Below are positions 6,992 to 40,342 of a stretch of DNA of 46,286 bases, piece by piece. The position numbers were made by a program, and so were the translations under genes. Origin of the DNA: a virus; the IMG/VR virus record IMGVR_UViG_3300003322_000810, positions 1 to 46,286 of that record; one strand, 5' to 3'. The notes beneath the pieces are model-generated. The model saw only the letters and a list, made by a program, of their open reading frames with translations. It was not told the DNA's origin and made no database searches. The first letter of the stretch is position 1. Each line of letters opens with the position of its first letter.

Positions 6992-7533
6992 TTTCGTTAC
7001 AAAAGCGCGTAGCCATAGCGATCACCGCGTTATCTGCGGTGACGCTCATCGGAAATATAGCCCGCCCGCAACCCGAACTCATATATCACACGATATTAAG
7101 TATAATTGAGGCATCAGCCGGGATTGTAATATTCGGGTTGTCGTTTTTCTTTGAAAACGTCACCATGAAGATTTCTCAGGTTTTTATGATTCTCATGGTC
7201 GGATCAACGACCGCACTTATCCCCGATAACGAAATTCCTCAAATCGTTTTCGGCGTCATTCTTATTTTGATTTCCATAAATCTTGCATGGTCCTATGATT
7301 TCTTCGACAAAAAACCGGTAGTAGCCTTGATTTTTTCGATGGTCATTCTCACCGGGATCATGTCTTTTTTACAATCATCGATCATAACAGGCTCCGCGAC
7401 CGCGCTCGGAATCGCGGTCGCCGCCGCTATTTTTTGGACAATTAGTTATGATAAGGTTAGGCGATTGCAGGAAATCGCACGCCGTGCCATGGATTTGGCG
7501 AAGCGCGCGGACCCAGGGGATGAAAATGGATGA
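6988..7533 (+). CDS. Multi-pass membrane protein
   Basis: About 181 residues with five or six hydrophobic helices spread over residues 10-155 and a basic C-terminal tail. I chose the ATG at 6988 because it overlaps the upstream stop (ATGA); a TTG at 6979 is possible. No family recognised. It heads a row of small membrane proteins that ends in lysis genes, so a role in lysis or in altering the host membrane is possible but unproven. Confidence 0.6.
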   Translation: MISLQKRVAIAITALSAVTLIGNIARPQPELIYHTILSIIEASAGIVIFGLSFFFENVTMKISQVFMILMVGSTTALIPDNEIPQIVFGVILILISINLAWSYDFFDKKPVVALIFSMVILTGIMSFLQSSIITGSATALGIAVAAAIFWTISYDKVRRLQEIARRAMDLAKRADPGDENG

Positions 7534-7849
7534 TAAAGAACTCAAGCAATGGCGGGAAGACTATATCCGGCTGGAACAGGATTACCGCCGGGAGGTTCCG
7601 GAAATGAAGCAAAAACAAATTCTCCATGCCAACGCGATCAATGAGCTACAAACAGCAGAGGCAAACAGAAAACAAAATACAGCAGAGATCGCCGACGCCT
7701 CGATAGAGCGATGGATGAAACAGAAGGGCCGCCGCCTTGAGCGCTGGACCCCGATAATTGTGCAGCTTATCATCGCCGCCGGAGTCCTCGGCGTCGCCTA
7801 TATCGGCTATCTTGGAATCATTGCGCAACTGAAAGGAATTATCCCATGA
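7526..7849 (+). CDS. Coiled-coil protein with one C-terminal membrane helix
   Basis: 107 residues. The ATG at 7526 has AGGGGA 5 bases upstream and is preferred over starts further upstream. Residues 1-70 are charged and predicted coiled coil. One hydrophobic segment lies near residues 78-98 (IIVQLIIAAGVLGVAYIGYLGII). This N-in layout resembles small phage holin-associated or haemolysin XhlA-like proteins, but no decisive motif is seen. It overlaps both neighbouring genes by 4-8 bases. Confidence 0.6.
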   Translation: MDDKELKQWREDYIRLEQDYRREVPEMKQKQILHANAINELQTAEANRKQNTAEIADASIERWMKQKGRRLERWTPIIVQLIIAAGVLGVAYIGYLGIIAQLKGIIP

Positions 7850-8148
7850 CCCCAGAACAATGGCTCGCATCAGGAATTTCATGTCTCGTTTGTAGCGGCC
7901 TCACCGTCCTACTCATGCAGGTTGTAAAAAAATACGACCCCGATCAAAAACTGCGGTCACTCCGATTGCTTATTGTTTTTGCCGCAGCCATGATAAGTTC
8001 GTTTGTCGTTTTTCTCGCCGGCGCGTTCCCGATTGAGCATATACCACTTCAGGTCACCGCGACATTCACGATCGCGACACTTTTTCACTCTTGGATCTTG
8101 CATGCCATCGAGAAAAAATTGAAAGAAAAAACAGGGGCAATAAAGTGA
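7846..8148 (+). CDS. Putative holin (three membrane helices)
   Basis: 100 residues with hydrophobic segments near 8-27, 41-62 and 69-88 and a strongly basic C-terminus (KKLKEKTGAIK), as in class I holins. It sits directly upstream of the putative endolysin gene, which overlaps it by 4 bases (GTGA). Holins permeabilise the inner membrane at a set time so that endolysin reaches the wall. The assignment rests on topology and neighbours, not on a family match. Confidence 0.6.
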   Translation: MTPEQWLASGISCLVCSGLTVLLMQVVKKYDPDQKLRSLRLLIVFAAAMISSFVVFLAGAFPIEHIPLQVTATFTIATLFHSWILHAIEKKLKEKTGAIK

Positions 8149-8543
8149 GACAAGGAATTCAACTCGAACTTAAGGACCAGGAAATAAAAGAATACGGCTG
8201 TTATGCCTTATGCATCATCCAATGGGCCGAACTCGAAACCAGTCAGACATTCGACGACAAGGATGTCAAACGTATTATCGGTGATGCAAAACAGAAATCC
8301 ATCATAGGCCCCGAGTGCTTCGTCAAAAACCCGCCAGCACTCTTCAACCTCGCCGCCCAGAAAGATCTGAAAACGCAATGTCTAAAAACAACGTCTCCGG
8401 TGCCAACTTGCATCTGCTGCAATAAAAAGCCAATGTACACGCATTTCACCCTGTGGCATGACGGAAAAACATGGGACCCGCTCCCACCCGGTCGCCCGAG
8501 TGCGAAGGCATACAAGCCTGATTCATGGCGAGTATTATCGTGA
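8145..8543 (+). CDS. DUF261-like protein, putative cysteine peptidase endolysin
   Basis: 132 residues from the GTG at 8145, which has AGGGG 7 bases upstream and overlaps the holin stop. The EYGCYALC opening and the C-terminal HFTLWHDGKTWDPL followed by a Ser-Arg-Val end recall DUF261, a family I know from spirochaete phages and plasmids. An N-terminal Cys and a later His-Asp region fit a papain-like fold. Cys39-type peptidase or endolysin activity is inferred from this and from the holin-like genes on both sides. A CICC pair in the middle could bind a metal. If it is not the endolysin, the phage has no recognised one. Confidence 0.5.
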   Translation: MRQGIQLELKDQEIKEYGCYALCIIQWAELETSQTFDDKDVKRIIGDAKQKSIIGPECFVKNPPALFNLAAQKDLKTQCLKTTSPVPTCICCNKKPMYTHFTLWHDGKTWDPLPPGRPSAKAYKPDSWRVLS

Positions 8544-8602: not shown

Positions 8603-8806
8603 ATGCCCGATAAAAAATGGAAGGTCTCTGACCTCTGGACCGACGCGCAGGGAAAACTCGATGAAAAACGTGTACTCGGCTGGCTACTCGCCATCGGCGC
8701 CATGGCGTATTTCATCATCCGCGGCGACGTCAATGGCTTTGTCGCTGGCATCAGCGCGAGCGCCGGATTCTTCGGCATATCGGTCGCGGCAGACCAGGGG
8801 AAATAA
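8603..8806 (+). CDS. Small holin-like membrane protein
   Basis: 67 residues. The ATG at 8603 has AGGAGGG (8589-8595) 7 bases upstream, a strong site; the open frame extends upstream without a better start. Two hydrophobic segments (about 25-40 and 44-60) connected by a short GDVNG turn, as in class II holins. May act with or antagonise the product of 7846-8148. Confidence 0.6.
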   Translation: MPDKKWKVSDLWTDAQGKLDEKRVLGWLLAIGAMAYFIIRGDVNGFVAGISASAGFFGISVAADQGK

Positions 8807-9382
8807 GTGTGGACAAAATCAACAAAGCCTTCGAGTGGCTCAAAACTCGGCCCACGTGGCTTAAAATTCTGCTTGTTGTTCCTGGCTTTCTGCTTGCCCT
8901 CATTGTCCTGGGCGCAGCAATCGCCCGAGCCGCCCGCGAGCAATCCATTTCTGGATGGACTACCACAACTACCAGAGCAGCCGAGCTCCACGATCAATCC
9001 GCCGATGCCACAAAAGAGCGACAAGCCGCTGAGCTTGCAGTTAGCCGACAGGCTGGAGAGTTGGGACAAATTCTGGACGATGGACGTTCGACCGTTGATA
9101 CAGGATTGGCAGACCTACGGGACCGAGGTGCAGACGTGGTATCAAAAGGTGACAGCCTCGTGGAATCTGATGCTGACCTCATTGCGCGAGCGCGACGAGA
9201 AAGCGGCGAAGGAACTGGCGGCGAAGGACGCTGAGATCGAGTACTTGCGCAGCGAGAATATACGTTTGAATATTGCTAATGCAGGTTTGAAATCAGATCT
9301 CAATCGCGCGCGAGGCGGAATGGTAATTACCGGGATAACCGGACTCGGCGTCGGATTCATACTCAAAATGCTCATAAAATGA
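8807..9382 (+). CDS. Putative outer/unimolecular spanin in the overlapping frame
   Basis: 191 residues. A basic N-region and hydrophobic segment (residues 20-36) ending SWA-QQ look like a secretion signal, with a Cys in LAFC that is a poor lipobox. A proline-rich stretch (38-70), a coiled coil (95-165) and a C-terminal membrane helix (about 172-188) ending in Lys follow. Signal plus proline-rich part plus C-terminal helix is the layout of unimolecular spanins such as T1 gp11. After 9234 this is the only open frame and its coding character (coiled coil plus helix) is clear. The GTG at 8807 is only 5 bases from the ribosome site, so coupling or an internal start is possible. Confidence 0.5.
   Translation: MWTKSTKPSSGSKLGPRGLKFCLLFLAFCLPSLSWAQQSPEPPASNPFLDGLPQLPEQPSSTINPPMPQKSDKPLSLQLADRLESWDKFWTMDVRPLIQDWQTYGTEVQTWYQKVTASWNLMLTSLRERDEKAAKELAAKDAEIEYLRSENIRLNIANAGLKSDLNRARGGMVITGITGLGVGFILKMLIK
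8809..9234 (+). CDS. Putative inner-membrane spanin (i-spanin-like), overlapping frame
   Basis: 141 residues. The N-terminus is basic, then a hydrophobic helix spans residues 19-40. The rest is Ala/Glu/Asp/Arg-rich and helical, the layout of Rz-like i-spanins anchored in the inner membrane. Its GTG start has AGGGGA 7 bases upstream, the better spacing of the two overlapping GTG starts. The whole gene is contained within the gene in another frame at 8807-9382. Function from topology and lysis neighbours only. Confidence 0.55.
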   Translation: MDKINKAFEWLKTRPTWLKILLVVPGFLLALIVLGAAIARAAREQSISGWTTTTTRAAELHDQSADATKERQAAELAVSRQAGELGQILDDGRSTVDTGLADLRDRGADVVSKGDSLVESDADLIARARRESGEGTGGEGR

Positions 9383-9405
9383 AAAAGGCCCCGGAAACCG
9401 GGGCC
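9382..9405 (-). terminator. Rho-independent terminator of the reverse mini-operon
   Basis: An 8-bp perfect G+C stem (9387-9394 with 9398-9405) with a three-base loop. The T-run (9386-9382) is on the minus strand. It lies 7 bases beyond the stop of the leftward 58-residue gene. Confidence 0.75.
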
Positions 9406-9411
9406 GGTAAA

Positions 9412-9588
9412 TCATCGGCCGGGACGGTGTTTCCTCCGAGCCTTGATTTTTACTGAATTGGAAAATCGAGATATCTCAGATTTTCCAAGCTGATAACCAC
9501 CCTTATAATCCGAGTTTGAATCCAAATCCTTATCGGGTATTCGGGTATTAAGGGCATCGTTTCTGCCCCGTTCGAAGTCTTCGCTCAT
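9412..9588 (-). CDS. Small basic hydrophilic protein of the reverse mini-operon
   Basis: 58 residues (MSEDFERGRNDALNTRIP at the start, ending KARRKHRPGR). The acidic N-terminus and strongly basic C-terminus suggest nucleic acid or protein binding. No family recognised. Its ATG overlaps the stop of the upstream 34-residue gene (ATGA) and the terminator follows at once, which makes a real gene likely despite its length. Confidence 0.6.
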   Translation of the reverse strand: MSEDFERGRNDALNTRIPDKDLDSNSDYKGGYQLGKSEISRFSNSVKIKARRKHRPGR

Positions 9589-9689
9589 TTGCCGTAGAAA
9601 ACAACGTAGGTTGATTGACCTACTGCCAATTGACTGGTAACGATCGGAAATCTCTTAACAAGAATTCCGGAATTGATTGCGTTTTTCAT
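9585..9689 (-). CDS. Small protein, first gene of the reverse mini-operon
   Basis: 34 residues (starts MKNAINSGILVKRFP). AGGAGG lies at 9704-9699, 9 bases upstream of the ATG, and a near-consensus promoter lies at 9766-9738. No family recognised. The leader around the ribosome site is repeated upstream of the minus-strand gene at 40633-40875. Confidence 0.6.
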   Translation of the reverse strand: MKNAINSGILVKRFPIVTSQLAVGQSTYVVFYGK

Positions 9690-9690
9690 C

Positions 9691-9713
9691 TATGTGCGCC
9701 TCCTAAGCGCTTT
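9691..9713 (-). promoter_or_regulatory. Repeated ribosome-binding leader, copy 1
   Basis: A 23-base segment matching 40878-40900 at 21 of 23 positions. Read on the minus strand it contains the palindrome AGCGCT immediately before AGGAGGCGCACA. It covers the ribosome site of the gene at 9585-9689. Such conservation outside coding sequence suggests a shared translational or transcriptional control site. Confidence 0.55.
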
Positions 9714-9737
9714 GGTGCATCAGCACCTTATACATAC

Positions 9738-9766
9738 AATATAGCTCTAACCGGTCAAACTGTCAA
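9738..9766 (-). promoter_or_regulatory. Near-consensus sigma-70 promoter of the reverse mini-operon
   Basis: Minus strand: TTGACA (9766-9761), exactly 17 bases, TATATT (9743-9738). The -35 box and spacer lie in a 25-base block (9747-9771) that recurs with one mismatch at 31757-31781 in front of another leftward gene. The spacer contains TTTGACCGGTTAG, a candidate operator. Confidence 0.8.
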
Positions 9767-36131: not shown

Positions 36132-37180
36132 ACCGACTCCAGATTTATTTTAAGCTGCCGAACCTCGTCGTCAATTCGTTTGTACGCCATATCGATATAT
36201 TGCGGATTCAACTCGATGCCGACAAATTTTCGATTGAGTCGCGAGGCTACAAGTGCCGTCGTTCCTGCACCCATAAACGGGTCAAGAACGATGCCGTTCT
36301 CCGGGGATCCGGCGAGTATGCAGGGTTCAATGAGTTTTTCCGGGAAGGTGGCAAAATGGGCTTCGGGGAATGCTTGCGTAGCGACGGTCCATACGGTGCG
36401 TTTGTTTGCGCCGGTTGCTTGTTGTTCTTGCTTTGACATGCCGTCCCATCGGTCGTTGAATCCCGCATGCCTGCGGGAATGTCCGCGCTGTTTATCTGAT
36501 CTGGGAGCAACGGCTTTCATATTTCCATTGCCTTTCGATGGAGTATAAGATCCGTTTTGATTTTTTATATCTTGATTAAGTCGTGCCACTGAGCTTTCTT
36601 TTATTGGTTCGCGAATAGCGTAGGAATCATAATAGTATTGGGGCGATTTCGAAAGCAAAAACAGATACTCATGCGCCTTCGTTGGTCGGTCTATTACCGA
36701 CTCGGGCATAGGATTTGGCTTACTCCAAATGATATCCGATCGGAGATACCAGCCGTCCGCACGCAGGGCGAAGGCGAGCATCCATGGAATGCCTACCATG
36801 TCCTTTGATTTTATGCCATTTATGGCACCCCTTTTACCATGACGGGTAGCCTTATTTTTGTCTGTGCCAGGTTCGGCAGTTCGAATTCCATCCTTCGCAA
36901 ATGATCCGCCACCGCCATTTCCGCCACCCGCATATGAATCCCCAATATTGACCCACAACGTCCCATCATCCCGAAGCGTTCGGCGAACTTCTCTGAATAT
37001 CTCGACCATGTTCGCGATATATTCTTCCGGGGTGTCCTCAAGACCGAGTTGTCCCGGAACGCCATAGTCACGAAGATTCCAATAGGGAGGGGATGTCACG
37101 CAGGTATTGAAAAATTGGTCGGGAAATTGACGAAGCAGCATGAGGCTATCGTCTTCATAAATCTTATTCAATTCCATCAT
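36128..37180 (-). CDS. DNA methyltransferase (N4-cytosine or N6-adenine type)
   Basis: 350 residues. Catalytic motif IV SPPY (30-33) comes before the AdoMet-binding motif I LDPFMGAGTT (about 300-310), the beta-class order. SPPY is usual for N4-cytosine enzymes but also occurs in N6-adenine ones. The variable region (about 180-260) should set the sequence specificity. No restriction partner is nearby, so protection of phage DNA against host restriction is likely. Its start overlaps the primase stop. Confidence 0.9.
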   Translation of the reverse strand: MMELNKIYEDDSLMLLRQFPDQFFNTCVTSPPYWNLRDYGVPGQLGLEDTPEEYIANMVEIFREVRRTLRDDGTLWVNIGDSYAGGGNGGGGSFAKDGIRTAEPGTDKNKATRHGKRGAINGIKSKDMVGIPWMLAFALRADGWYLRSDIIWSKPNPMPESVIDRPTKAHEYLFLLSKSPQYYYDSYAIREPIKESSVARLNQDIKNQNGSYTPSKGNGNMKAVAPRSDKQRGHSRRHAGFNDRWDGMSKQEQQATGANKRTVWTVATQAFPEAHFATFPEKLIEPCILAGSPENGIVLDPFMGAGTTALVASRLNRKFVGIELNPQYIDMAYKRIDDEVRQLKINLESV

Positions 37181-40173
37181 ATCCCCACCTCATCATCCCA
37201 AATGATCTCGCGAATCCAGACACTCGCTCCGAGGCGCGCGAAATTCTCGTACTTCCAGTACTTCGACGAGCGTTTGAGGAGTTTTGAGTACGTCCTGCCA
37301 CTCATATCCCACACCTTTGATATGTAATCCGAGTTCGCTTTGACCACGAGGCAACCTGATTTTTTATCGACCATGACACCGCGATTGACCGCGGTCGTGC
37401 GCCAGTTGTCCAACTCGGTGTACTCGAGATTCCTCGTCTCGGTTCGACCAGACAGGCCAAGCTCACGGTTCTCCCCGGTTTGCTTCTCGACGACGCCGTA
37501 CTTGATGCCCCTGAGTATCTCGCGCAGGGTCAACTCAGTTTTCGGGTCTCCTGATATTTTCGTCACCTGGTCCAAGAGTTTGTCGAGCATCTCCTCGGTC
37601 TCGTCGCGCTTATCCTCAAGCGGTTTGACCTTGTAGACTTGACCTATCCAGTCGGCGAACTCGTCCTCACCTGGGATCCGGTCTTTGAACACCCGCCAGA
37701 AGGCCGCGAACAAGAGTGCGTCGGCGTATCCTCGGCGCGAGTCCTGGATCATAGCCACGATTGCCCGCGTCATGACGTTTGCTGCCGCGAGGATCTCAGG
37801 CATCTTCGACCATGTAAACGCCCTGATACCTGCGCACACGTCGTCAGTCACGGCCGCCGCAAGGTTGTCCGATATGGTCTCCCACTTGCTTGGATCACCC
37901 GGCACGAGGTTGACCGACATGATTCGGTTGTCTTGCTCGACATTTCCCGTAGCCGGCGTCACCGCCGAGAACAGGAACATGTTGCGCATAAGGTACGATA
38001 GAGCGCCCTCACCGTTCGGCGTGCCCTTGGCGACCTGCGGCGCATCGTCTGAGGTCGATTGCTGCATGAGCGCGAATAGCCCTTGACGCATTTCCTGACC
38101 TTTTTTACCCTCGATGTTGGCCTCGTCGATGATGACCGGTAGGCTATCGAGTCCGGTCTTTTGCCTGACTCCGGCCTCGGATGTGCCTCCCGACAGGTAA
38201 TAGGGTGTAGCCACCAGCGGCATGATGACGCGGAGTAGTAGCGTCGATTTACCCGATTTGCTCTCGCCGGTCAGTACCATCGCGTTGCGCCACGGGAGAC
38301 ATCCGCCGAATGGTGCAAGCAGGCTCCATGCAAGCGCCCTCGTAGTGTCGGCTTTGGTCTCAAAGGTCATAGCCGACACGGCCTCAAGGAATTTCTTCCG
38401 CTCCTCGAATGTCGCATGCCGCTTGTGTAGGCCCACATCGTAGACGGTTTTTTTGAGGTACAACCGGCGGTCGTCCGGCTCGCCGATCGTCTGGTGACCG
38501 TCATGGTAGCAGATACGGCCGTCACGCTCCCGCCATGCACCGCGACCCCGACGGTTCTCAGGATCGAACTCTTGCGCCTGGCTGATGCGGATGACAAAAT
38601 CGGTGGACTCTTGCCAGTCGACGCCACCCTTGTGATTCGGGAACTCGGTAATCCACCATGTGAGTGGTGCCAAGTCAAGCATTTTTGTACTCGTCAGGGT
38701 GTCGAGTCGGTATTTTTTGAGTCGGGCTGAACAGTCGAGGAAGTAGGCGAATCCGTCGTCGGCGACTCCGAGGGGGCGGAAGGGGTAGTCAGTGTTATTG
38801 TTATCCCGTGGGTGCCCGTCTCCTCCTCCCACTTGCCTGCTATGAGAAAGCACCCCTCCGGTGCCCGCAGAAATATTTCCTTTACCGCTTGAATCAGTAT
38901 TTGTTCTACCTGATCCTGGGTCATTGTTTCGAACGGTCTGCTGGGTGCTTCCATTTTGTTCAATTCTACCTTTTCCCGTTTCATTTTTCGCGTGACTCCT
39001 TTTCTTCCTGTCTCGTTCTTCCCAACCCGCGATAAGCGCATCGAGTTCGTCCGTGCTGATCTCGGGACCGTTCAAGATCCACTCGCGCATCTCGTCGGGT
39101 GTTTTGACCTTGAGTGCGTCCACGATGTCCGAGCCGTCGCCGAAGGTTCCTACGGCAGGGCGGCAGACCTTGATCCGTATTTCCGAACGATTTTCTTGAT
39201 TATTCGCATTTTCGGACTGATCGTGTTCCGCTGCTTTCCGCGCTTCCGCTTCCAAACGACGGGCGAGATTCCTTGCGGCCTTAAAACCCGGTTCGTCGTT
39301 ATCTGGATAGTAATAGGCACCATCCCGAGCGATTCGTGCTGATAACGAATTTCCGATATCGAACTTTCCCACACTTTCGACGCCTCGATTCCACGAAAGC
39401 GGCACAATTCCTGTAATCGCCTTAGCTGCCGCTCGACACTTCGCGCCCTCGTGGAAGCAGATGGGCCAGTCTGGGTTTTTTGCGAGCTCGTCTCGTCCGA
39501 AGAGGATGACGGGGGCGTTTTTGGTCTGGATGTATTGTCCGTTGTAGTAGAAGCTGATGACGTTTTTAACGACTGCGTGTTGGCTTCGCTCCACGCCTTC
39601 TCCCACTGTTCCATCGTCATTTCTTTCCTGCTCGAATCTGACATCTACAACCTCCACAAGTCCTTGTTCATTCCGCGCGGCCCATTTGCCCGCTATTCTC
39701 GTACCCCAGCCAACTGACGGGTTCTCAGGTTTTTTGCCGTGCTTATCGAAATACTTCTTGTCGTCGAACTCAGCTTTCCACGCATTCGCCTTCATGAGCG
39801 CGTCGTCCGAGAAAATACGGCGCGCGTCCTCGTTTGTGACCGGCACGACTACTGGGACCTCACGCTCTTTCTTCGTCTGGCGCTTGACCGGCTCGCCCAC
39901 CGATGCGCCGACGGTATCGGCTACACGCTGGAGTACGGTTGGAAAATCAGTCGATCCGCGCAGCCATTGGTCGACCTCGAACACGTCGTAGTTCATCGCG
40001 CATACAAAGCAGTGTATATACTCGTCGTTGGCGATATGCGCATTCTCATACGGCGGACCGTCATTATGCGCCGGGTTTTGGCAGGGCACGTAGTCGTCCG
40101 ATGTTATCTCAATGCCTGATCGCGTCAAGTAATCGCGCAGTCGCGGGCGCAGGTCGTCAGCTTTGAGCCTCAA
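37177..40173 (-). CDS. Primase-helicase replication protein
   Basis: 998 residues from TTG 40173 (AAAGGG about 6 bases upstream). The open frame continues to an ATG at 40314, but that part is read through the tRNA-like element and lacks protein character. A zinc-binding CQNPAH/CFVC region (about residues 31-57) is followed by a TOPRIM-like core with HEGAKC (about 241) and YYPDND (about 285). A C-terminal helicase follows, with Walker A GESKSGKST (about 635) and Walker B VIIDEAN. It likely primes and unwinds at the phage origin. Linker residues 360-450 are charged and low complexity. Confidence 0.85.
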   Translation of the reverse strand: MRLKADDLRPRLRDYLTRSGIEITSDDYVPCQNPAHNDGPPYENAHIANDEYIHCFVCAMNYDVFEVDQWLRGSTDFPTVLQRVADTVGASVGEPVKRQTKKEREVPVVVPVTNEDARRIFSDDALMKANAWKAEFDDKKYFDKHGKKPENPSVGWGTRIAGKWAARNEQGLVEVVDVRFEQERNDDGTVGEGVERSQHAVVKNVISFYYNGQYIQTKNAPVILFGRDELAKNPDWPICFHEGAKCRAAAKAITGIVPLSWNRGVESVGKFDIGNSLSARIARDGAYYYPDNDEPGFKAARNLARRLEAEARKAAEHDQSENANNQENRSEIRIKVCRPAVGTFGDGSDIVDALKVKTPDEMREWILNGPEISTDELDALIAGWEERDRKKRSHAKNETGKGRIEQNGSTQQTVRNNDPGSGRTNTDSSGKGNISAGTGGVLSHSRQVGGGDGHPRDNNNTDYPFRPLGVADDGFAYFLDCSARLKKYRLDTLTSTKMLDLAPLTWWITEFPNHKGGVDWQESTDFVIRISQAQEFDPENRRGRGAWRERDGRICYHDGHQTIGEPDDRRLYLKKTVYDVGLHKRHATFEERKKFLEAVSAMTFETKADTTRALAWSLLAPFGGCLPWRNAMVLTGESKSGKSTLLLRVIMPLVATPYYLSGGTSEAGVRQKTGLDSLPVIIDEANIEGKKGQEMRQGLFALMQQSTSDDAPQVAKGTPNGEGALSYLMRNMFLFSAVTPATGNVEQDNRIMSVNLVPGDPSKWETISDNLAAAVTDDVCAGIRAFTWSKMPEILAAANVMTRAIVAMIQDSRRGYADALLFAAFWRVFKDRIPGEDEFADWIGQVYKVKPLEDKRDETEEMLDKLLDQVTKISGDPKTELTLREILRGIKYGVVEKQTGENRELGLSGRTETRNLEYTELDNWRTTAVNRGVMVDKKSGCLVVKANSDYISKVWDMSGRTYSKLLKRSSKYWKYENFARLGASVWIREIIWDDEVGI

Positions 40174-40202
40174 TGTGTTCCCTTTCCAGTTCCAGCGAAA
40201 AC

Positions 40203-40342
40203 GAGAGACGGCCGGATTTGAACCAGCGACCTTCCGACAAATAGCCTCAACGCGCCTCGACACTGGACATGCACTGACCCCACGTCGACCGGCCCCAGCG
40301 TCTACTTTTTTCATCGGTGCTCTACCACTGAGCTACGTCTCT
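40203..40342 (-). other. tRNA-like element with an enlarged anticodon arm
   Basis: Minus strand, 140 bases. Acceptor AGAGACG pairs perfectly with CGTCTCT. U8 is present. The D arm is GCTC-AGTGGTA-GAGC and the T arm is GCTGG-TTCAAAT-CCGGC, both canonical. CCGAT and GTCGG can form an anticodon stem, but 74 bases replace the 7-base loop, so about 67 extra bases are inserted and no U33 is obvious. The insert itself can fold (TCGAC with GTCGA). It is either an intron-like tRNA, a decayed tRNA or an RNA mimic in the leader of the primase gene. Confidence 0.65.

Follow-up and report, generated by a model that had tools for sequence, protein, structure and literature searches.

The locus at positions 8807 to 9382 of the window, by which we mean the whole analysed stretch of 46,286 nucleotides, raises two questions: whether two long reading frames that start 2 bases apart are both genes, and whether their products act together in host lysis as a pair of spanins would. 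The virus record has 47,285 bases, nearly all of which is covered by the window, and it carries the genes of a myovirus, namely terminase, lambda-type portal, head maturation protease, capsid, sheath, tape measure and baseplate; two tRNAs are found in the window as well. A first-pass annotation had described two overlapping membrane-protein frames here, the smaller one entirely inside the larger, which is the reverse of the nesting known from lambda. Both open reading frames are indeed present: the large gene (8807-9382, plus strand) has a GTG start and encodes 191 aa, and the small gene (8809-9234, plus strand), also with a GTG start and 141 aa long, lies wholly within it. Each begins at the first start codon past the upstream stop in its own frame, and the third forward frame contains 7 stops across the pair.

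Two nested frames in four phages

The pair is located between the portal and protease genes, downstream of a DUF261 gene and a small holin-like gene. Direct searches of viral contigs and of an annotated phage set with either protein returned no close relatives, and relatives were instead reached through portal and capsid protein searches of viral contigs (IMG/VR). In this way three divergent contigs were obtained, L003 (portal 56%, capsid 67% identity to the window), L008 (portal 54%, capsid 58%) and L013 (capsid about 40%), and each of them has a nested pair between portal and protease. The large gene of these relatives encodes 152-202 aa with a signal peptide, a helix-rich periplasmic domain and a C-terminal hydrophobic helix; the small gene, nested in the large one, encodes 118-164 aa with an N-terminal transmembrane (TM) segment and a helix. 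The inverted nesting thus recurs in all three, and no stop codon interrupts either frame in any of them, the point on which the first-pass annotation had staked its proposal. With the small frame as reference, the large frame is at +1 in all four phages, the phase that lambda Rz1 has relative to Rz. The proteins share only 21-30% identity with those of the window in pairwise gapped alignments, so that the conserved part is the architecture, the phase and the geometry of the starts.

This conservation sample consists of four loci from one clade. Two contigs with an 88% identical capsid (L009 and L012) start at the capsid gene region or inside it and carry no lysis genes. Between portal and protease, the pair is missing from three more (L002, L004 and L005), and an RTGTG pair with a good Shine-Dalgarno (SD) sequence is absent from five annotated phages that are related in their portal, terminase or capsid proteins. 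No prophage was found by portal and capsid searches of genomes.

Synonymous recoding was used as a control for chance. When the large frame was recoded, the small frame still remained open in 2.7, 4.5, 9.9 and 5.7% of the versions (window, L003, L008 and L013, respectively), and it was open and contained a TM segment in 0.75, 0.07, 0.27 and 0.06%. In the converse test, recoding of the small frame left 1.1, 5.0, 4.0 and 6.9% of the versions with an open large frame; those that also had a hydrophobic N-terminus made up no more than 0.03% in any of the four phages, and 0 of 20,000 trials in the window. The signal-peptide rule recognizes all four large proteins, compared with 0.04-1.25% of the open recoded versions. 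By these controls, chance is very unlikely as the origin of the nested pair.

Codon usage was compared as well. In the overlaps of L003 and L008, both frames are far from all other genes tested, at the level of a wrong frame, and the tail of the large gene is closer to normal than the overlap, most clearly in the same two phages. The trend has the same direction in the window and in L013 and is not decisive there, because some other small genes deviate equally. Two further genes of the window, 190-846 and 833-1453, are as deviant as the overlap, which suggests a recent acquisition or different constraints. Dual coding of the locus is strongly supported, and it is highly probable that both frames are genes.

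A probable shared start site

That the two starts share one ribosome site, as the first-pass annotation had stated, is supported by the sequence. A single SD, AGGGG at 8796-8800 (plus strand), was identified by alignment to the 3' end of the E. coli 16S rRNA, and it is followed by the sequence GUGUG at 8807-8811 (plus strand), in which GTG 8807 opens the large and GTG 8809 the small gene. The motif occupies the same place in all four phages; L003 and L008 have AUGUG, and the other two, the window and L013, have GUGUG. Counted by the convention of Kohl et al. (PMC9841429), the distances from the SD to the large and small start are 13/15 in the window, 12/14 in L003 and in L008, and 14/16 in L013. 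These authors measured dual initiation in E. coli as well as in vitro, with AUGUG at a spacing of 12/14 and with GUGUG at spacings of 12/14 to 14/16 (PMC9841429), and the combination of RUGUG with one SD at a permissive spacing, which characterizes an AUGUG/GUGUG ambiguous start, is found in each of the four phages. In L013, the small frame has a further ATG at 2689, an alternative start 4 nt upstream. As a background, 15 phage records (0.71 Mb of strand-bases) contain 741 RTGTG sites. A good SD precedes 19 of them by 11-16 nt, and the four of these 19 that open two reading frames of at least 100 aa are exactly the four syntenic sites.

By analogy with the rules measured in E. coli, it is quite probable that both proteins start at this shared RTGTG site, and we infer dual initiation. 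According to the published E. coli measurements, 30S subunits positioned by the single SD would initiate at either of the overlapping codons, and the two proteins would be made together in a ratio that depends on the spacing and on the identity of the start codons. The conservation of RTGTG, although both proteins have nearly lost their similarity, suggests selection for two full-length proteins per site.

A different mode of initiation has to be considered, since the holin-like gene upstream ends directly at the start region or within it in each of the four phages, so that termination-reinitiation may contribute: its stop codon TAA abuts GTG in the window, and stop and start overlap in L003 and L008 (TGATG) and in L013 (TGATGGGTGTG). 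Synthesis of both proteins mainly by reinitiation from the holin-like gene, in place of de novo ambiguous initiation, would be compatible with a spanin-like role, but we consider it unlikely, as a good SD is present at 12-14 nt in all four phages and reinitiation alone leaves the conserved exact RTGTG overlap unexplained. The two modes can be combined, however, and reinitiation may add to the ambiguous initiation that we prefer.

Protein anatomy, lysis cassette and spanin class

The small protein has a TM helix at residues 20-38 (8866-8922, plus strand) with a Kyte-Doolittle value of 2.88 and an estimated insertion energy of -2.9; the insertion energies given here for both proteins are rough. 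An AlphaFold2 model of modest confidence, from a shallow alignment, places a helix at residues 57-133 after the TM helix. The TM segments of the small proteins are clearly hydrophobic, and the layout of an i-spanin, an N-terminal inner-membrane TM segment followed by a periplasmic domain, is found in all four phages. Weak matches to the Rz-like spanin family phrog_739 were obtained in L008 (E 0.009) and L003 (E 0.046). The first-pass description of this frame as i-spanin-like is in line with these data, and the predicted anatomy agrees with that of an i-spanin.

The large protein begins with a predicted signal peptide of 36 residues (8807-8914, plus strand), which rests on a rule-based prediction with a recoding control and ends in a signal-peptidase-I site, SWA/QQS. 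The signal-like start that had been noticed earlier is of the signal-peptidase-I type and not a lipoprotein signal. The proline-rich stretch noticed with it is borne out by 14 prolines in the first 90 residues, and residues 37-74 (8915-9028, plus strand) form a linker modelled as disordered at low confidence, with a pLDDT of about 45-60 over most of its length. In the AlphaFold2 model, which is likewise based on a shallow alignment, the signal helix and this stretch are followed by a single long helix at residues 75-190 (9029-9376, plus strand) with a core pLDDT above 90. Its last part, the glycine-rich residues 172-190 (9320-9376, plus strand), lies outside the overlap and corresponds to the C-terminal membrane helix proposed earlier; the helix is present and just weakly hydrophobic (Kyte-Doolittle 1.97, estimated insertion energy about +0.3), and it is similarly marginal in all four phages. 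The coiled coil of the first-pass annotation is a loosely used term, as a heptad periodicity is significant in some of the proteins only.

The annotation had also placed the pair in a lysis context, and the neighbours agree with this, with a holin-like gene and an endolysin, or a candidate for one, ahead of the pair. The lysis-cassette location is clearest in L008, where the order is an M15 endolysin (phrog_465, E 6.7e-20), a two-TM holin-like gene and the pair, and it is similar, with candidate endolysins, in the window, L003 and L013. In the window, the holin-like small membrane protein is encoded at 8603-8806 (plus strand) in a frame that is open from 8525, and its TAA directly precedes GTG 8807. 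It has no family match, and it resembles the holin-like protein of L013 (L013:2435-2689; 30% identity, DQGK in both), which there accompanies a C39-like peptidase. The candidate endolysin of the window is a DUF261 protein at 8145-8543 (plus strand; PF03196, E 1.3e-6), with a homologue in L003 (L003:6594-7049; E 3.6e-15). The two DUF261 genes correspond in position to the M15 endolysin gene of L008 and to the gene for the C39-like peptidase in L013, and a GCY motif with a later His and an Asp-Pro suggests that DUF261 may be a cysteine-peptidase endolysin.

Some further genes in the surroundings deserve mention. In L003, a class 3 lipase gene (L003:8207-8881; PF01764, E 1.3e-12) lies directly downstream of the large gene and overlaps its end, and it could encode an additional envelope-attacking lysis enzyme. 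In the window, a leftward unit (9387-9766, minus strand) converges with the lysis genes. It has a promoter-like TTGACA-17-TATATT at 9766-9738 (11/12), short open reading frames as read from the sequence, of about 34 aa and then 58 aa (9412-9588), and at its end a strong hairpin with a T-run at 9405-9387, immediately past the stop codon of the large gene. Far from the cassette, a 1045-aa protein encoded at 37177-40314 (minus strand), adjoining a DNA methylase gene, has no convincing Pfam match.

The assignment to a spanin class is complicated by the lipoprotein question. An o-spanin is an outer-membrane lipoprotein, and a lipobox is absent from the large protein in all four phages; that of L008 contains no cysteine at all. 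An o-spanin embedded elsewhere in the record was considered and rejected, as the 47.3-kb record, scanned in all six frames with a relaxed lipobox pattern, contains no such open reading frame; lambda Rz1 was detected as a control. A lipobox protein was found at one place only among these loci, L013:4742-5131 (ALGAC/S, 129 aa), downstream of the pair by about 1.4 kb; the record of the window has none. Periplasmic cysteines, which are reported to be ubiquitous in two-component spanins, are absent from three of the four pairs (window, L003 and L008), and outside the signal and TM segments they occur only in the large protein of L013. The large protein of L008 weakly matches the Rz-like spanin family phrog_89 (E 0.0018); the weak PHROG spanin matches could reflect coiled-coil composition, and neither of the two proteins of the window matches a spanin family. 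The anatomy resembles that of a two-component spanin, but for want of the lipoprotein we do not file the pair in this class. The large protein fits the lipoprotein-free description of Kongari et al., provided that its C-terminal helix really anchors it in the inner membrane. As the lipoprotein is missing and cysteines are scarce, a spanin-like role with an outer-membrane function is something that we infer; it is favoured, at somewhat better than even odds, by position and anatomy.

Taken as a whole, we think that the locus is best read as a dual-coded spanin-like pair at the end of the lysis cassette that lacks a lipoprotein, is nested the opposite way from lambda and is initiated ambiguously, a reading to which we assign a probability of roughly 0.58. 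The N-terminal helix of the small protein would hold it in the inner membrane, and its periplasmic helix would be directed outward, as the anatomy suggests. The large protein would be exported by its cleavable signal peptide and would present a disordered proline-rich segment and a periplasmic helix of roughly 100 residues, and its weak C-terminal helix might anchor it in the inner membrane or, which would be less conventional, in the outer one. The helices of both proteins could then form a periplasm-spanning complex. Like Rz-Rz1, but without a lipoprotein, this complex would follow the action of holin and endolysin and disrupt the outer membrane, which the host is assumed to possess.

Both genes could also be real and serve another purpose, such as the timing of lysis (an antiholin or endolysin inhibitor) or a modification of the envelope, for example in superinfection exclusion. 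The lack of a lipoprotein, the inner-membrane-like topology of the large protein, the lack of a strong family match and two more small membrane-protein genes of unassigned role upstream (7448-8148) would agree with this; we nevertheless find it rather improbable, as the pair comes last in the cassette behind endolysin and holin-like genes, both products have long periplasmic helices and weak matches to Rz-like spanins exist. It is very improbable that the large frame is the sole gene and the small frame open by accident. The large frame is the longer one and extends past the overlap, and the small protein of the window has no family match, but the small frame is open and TM-bearing in four divergent phages, the codon usage of the large frame is abnormal exactly within the overlap, and the joint recoding chance, a product of the per-phage values with the four phages treated as independent, is about 7e-6 for an open small frame and about 8e-12 for one with a TM segment. 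The proposal of the first-pass annotation that the large protein is a unimolecular spanin, with the small one as an accessory, would explain the N-terminal signal and C-terminal hydrophobic helix, but we rejected it as hardly credible, since u-spanins require lipoylation (PMC6139136) and these proteins have no lipobox in any of the four phages, no cysteine in L008, a periplasmic domain predicted to be helical and not beta, and a marginal C-terminal membrane segment.

Comparison with known systems

The spanin-like pair that we favour would add to the classification of spanins as embedded, overlapped and separated an architecture that is absent there, and it would supply a concrete candidate for the lipoprotein-free spanins of Kongari et al. 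We put at even odds the wider proposal that the conserved RUGUG of this phage clade is an evolved two-protein device, and that it serves a lipoprotein-free spanin-like complex in which an i-spanin-like gene lies inside the gene of a partner with a type I signal. Such a device would use one SD and two frames to produce two full-length envelope proteins at a fixed ratio.

Lambda Rz/Rz1, an embedded pair (SpaninDB, PMC6139136), shares with the present locus the lysis-cassette position, an inner-membrane protein with a periplasmic helix, a partner in the +1 frame and, in the window, a proline-rich partner with a signal sequence. It differs in that the nesting is inverted here, with the i-spanin-like gene inside the longer one, and in that the starts are 2 nt apart, whereas the lambda partner has an internal start. 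The partner here is also not a lipoprotein, is longer and has a C-terminal hydrophobic helix, and cysteines are few. Unimolecular spanins of the T1 gp11 type are likewise exported, have a hydrophobic C-terminus and come last in the lysis cassette, but here there is no lipobox and a second protein is present, and the periplasmic domain of the gp11 family is mainly beta, in contrast to the one long helix predicted here.

With respect to initiation, the E. coli AUGUG/GUGUG sites of pqiA, tamA and narQ (PMC9841429) have the same motif, and the spacing at our locus is in the range for which dual initiation was measured; pqiA resembles it also in its single SD. Ambiguous initiation in E. coli has been shown mainly with reporters and very short native peptides (PMC9841429). 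The alternative frames of pqiA and tamA encode 15 and 10 aa (PMC9841429), whereas the products here have 118-202 aa and are conserved in a phage clade. The dual start of lambda S105/S107 also yields two lysis proteins from neighbouring starts, but in the same frame and with two SD motifs (PMC9841429). As the only earlier bacterial case, Kohl et al. name the Thermus rnpA-rpmH overlap (PMC9841429), in which one SD and neighbouring starts in different frames likewise give two proteins; there the motif is AUGGAUG and not RUGUG, and the products are bacterial proteins and not parts of a phage lysis cassette.
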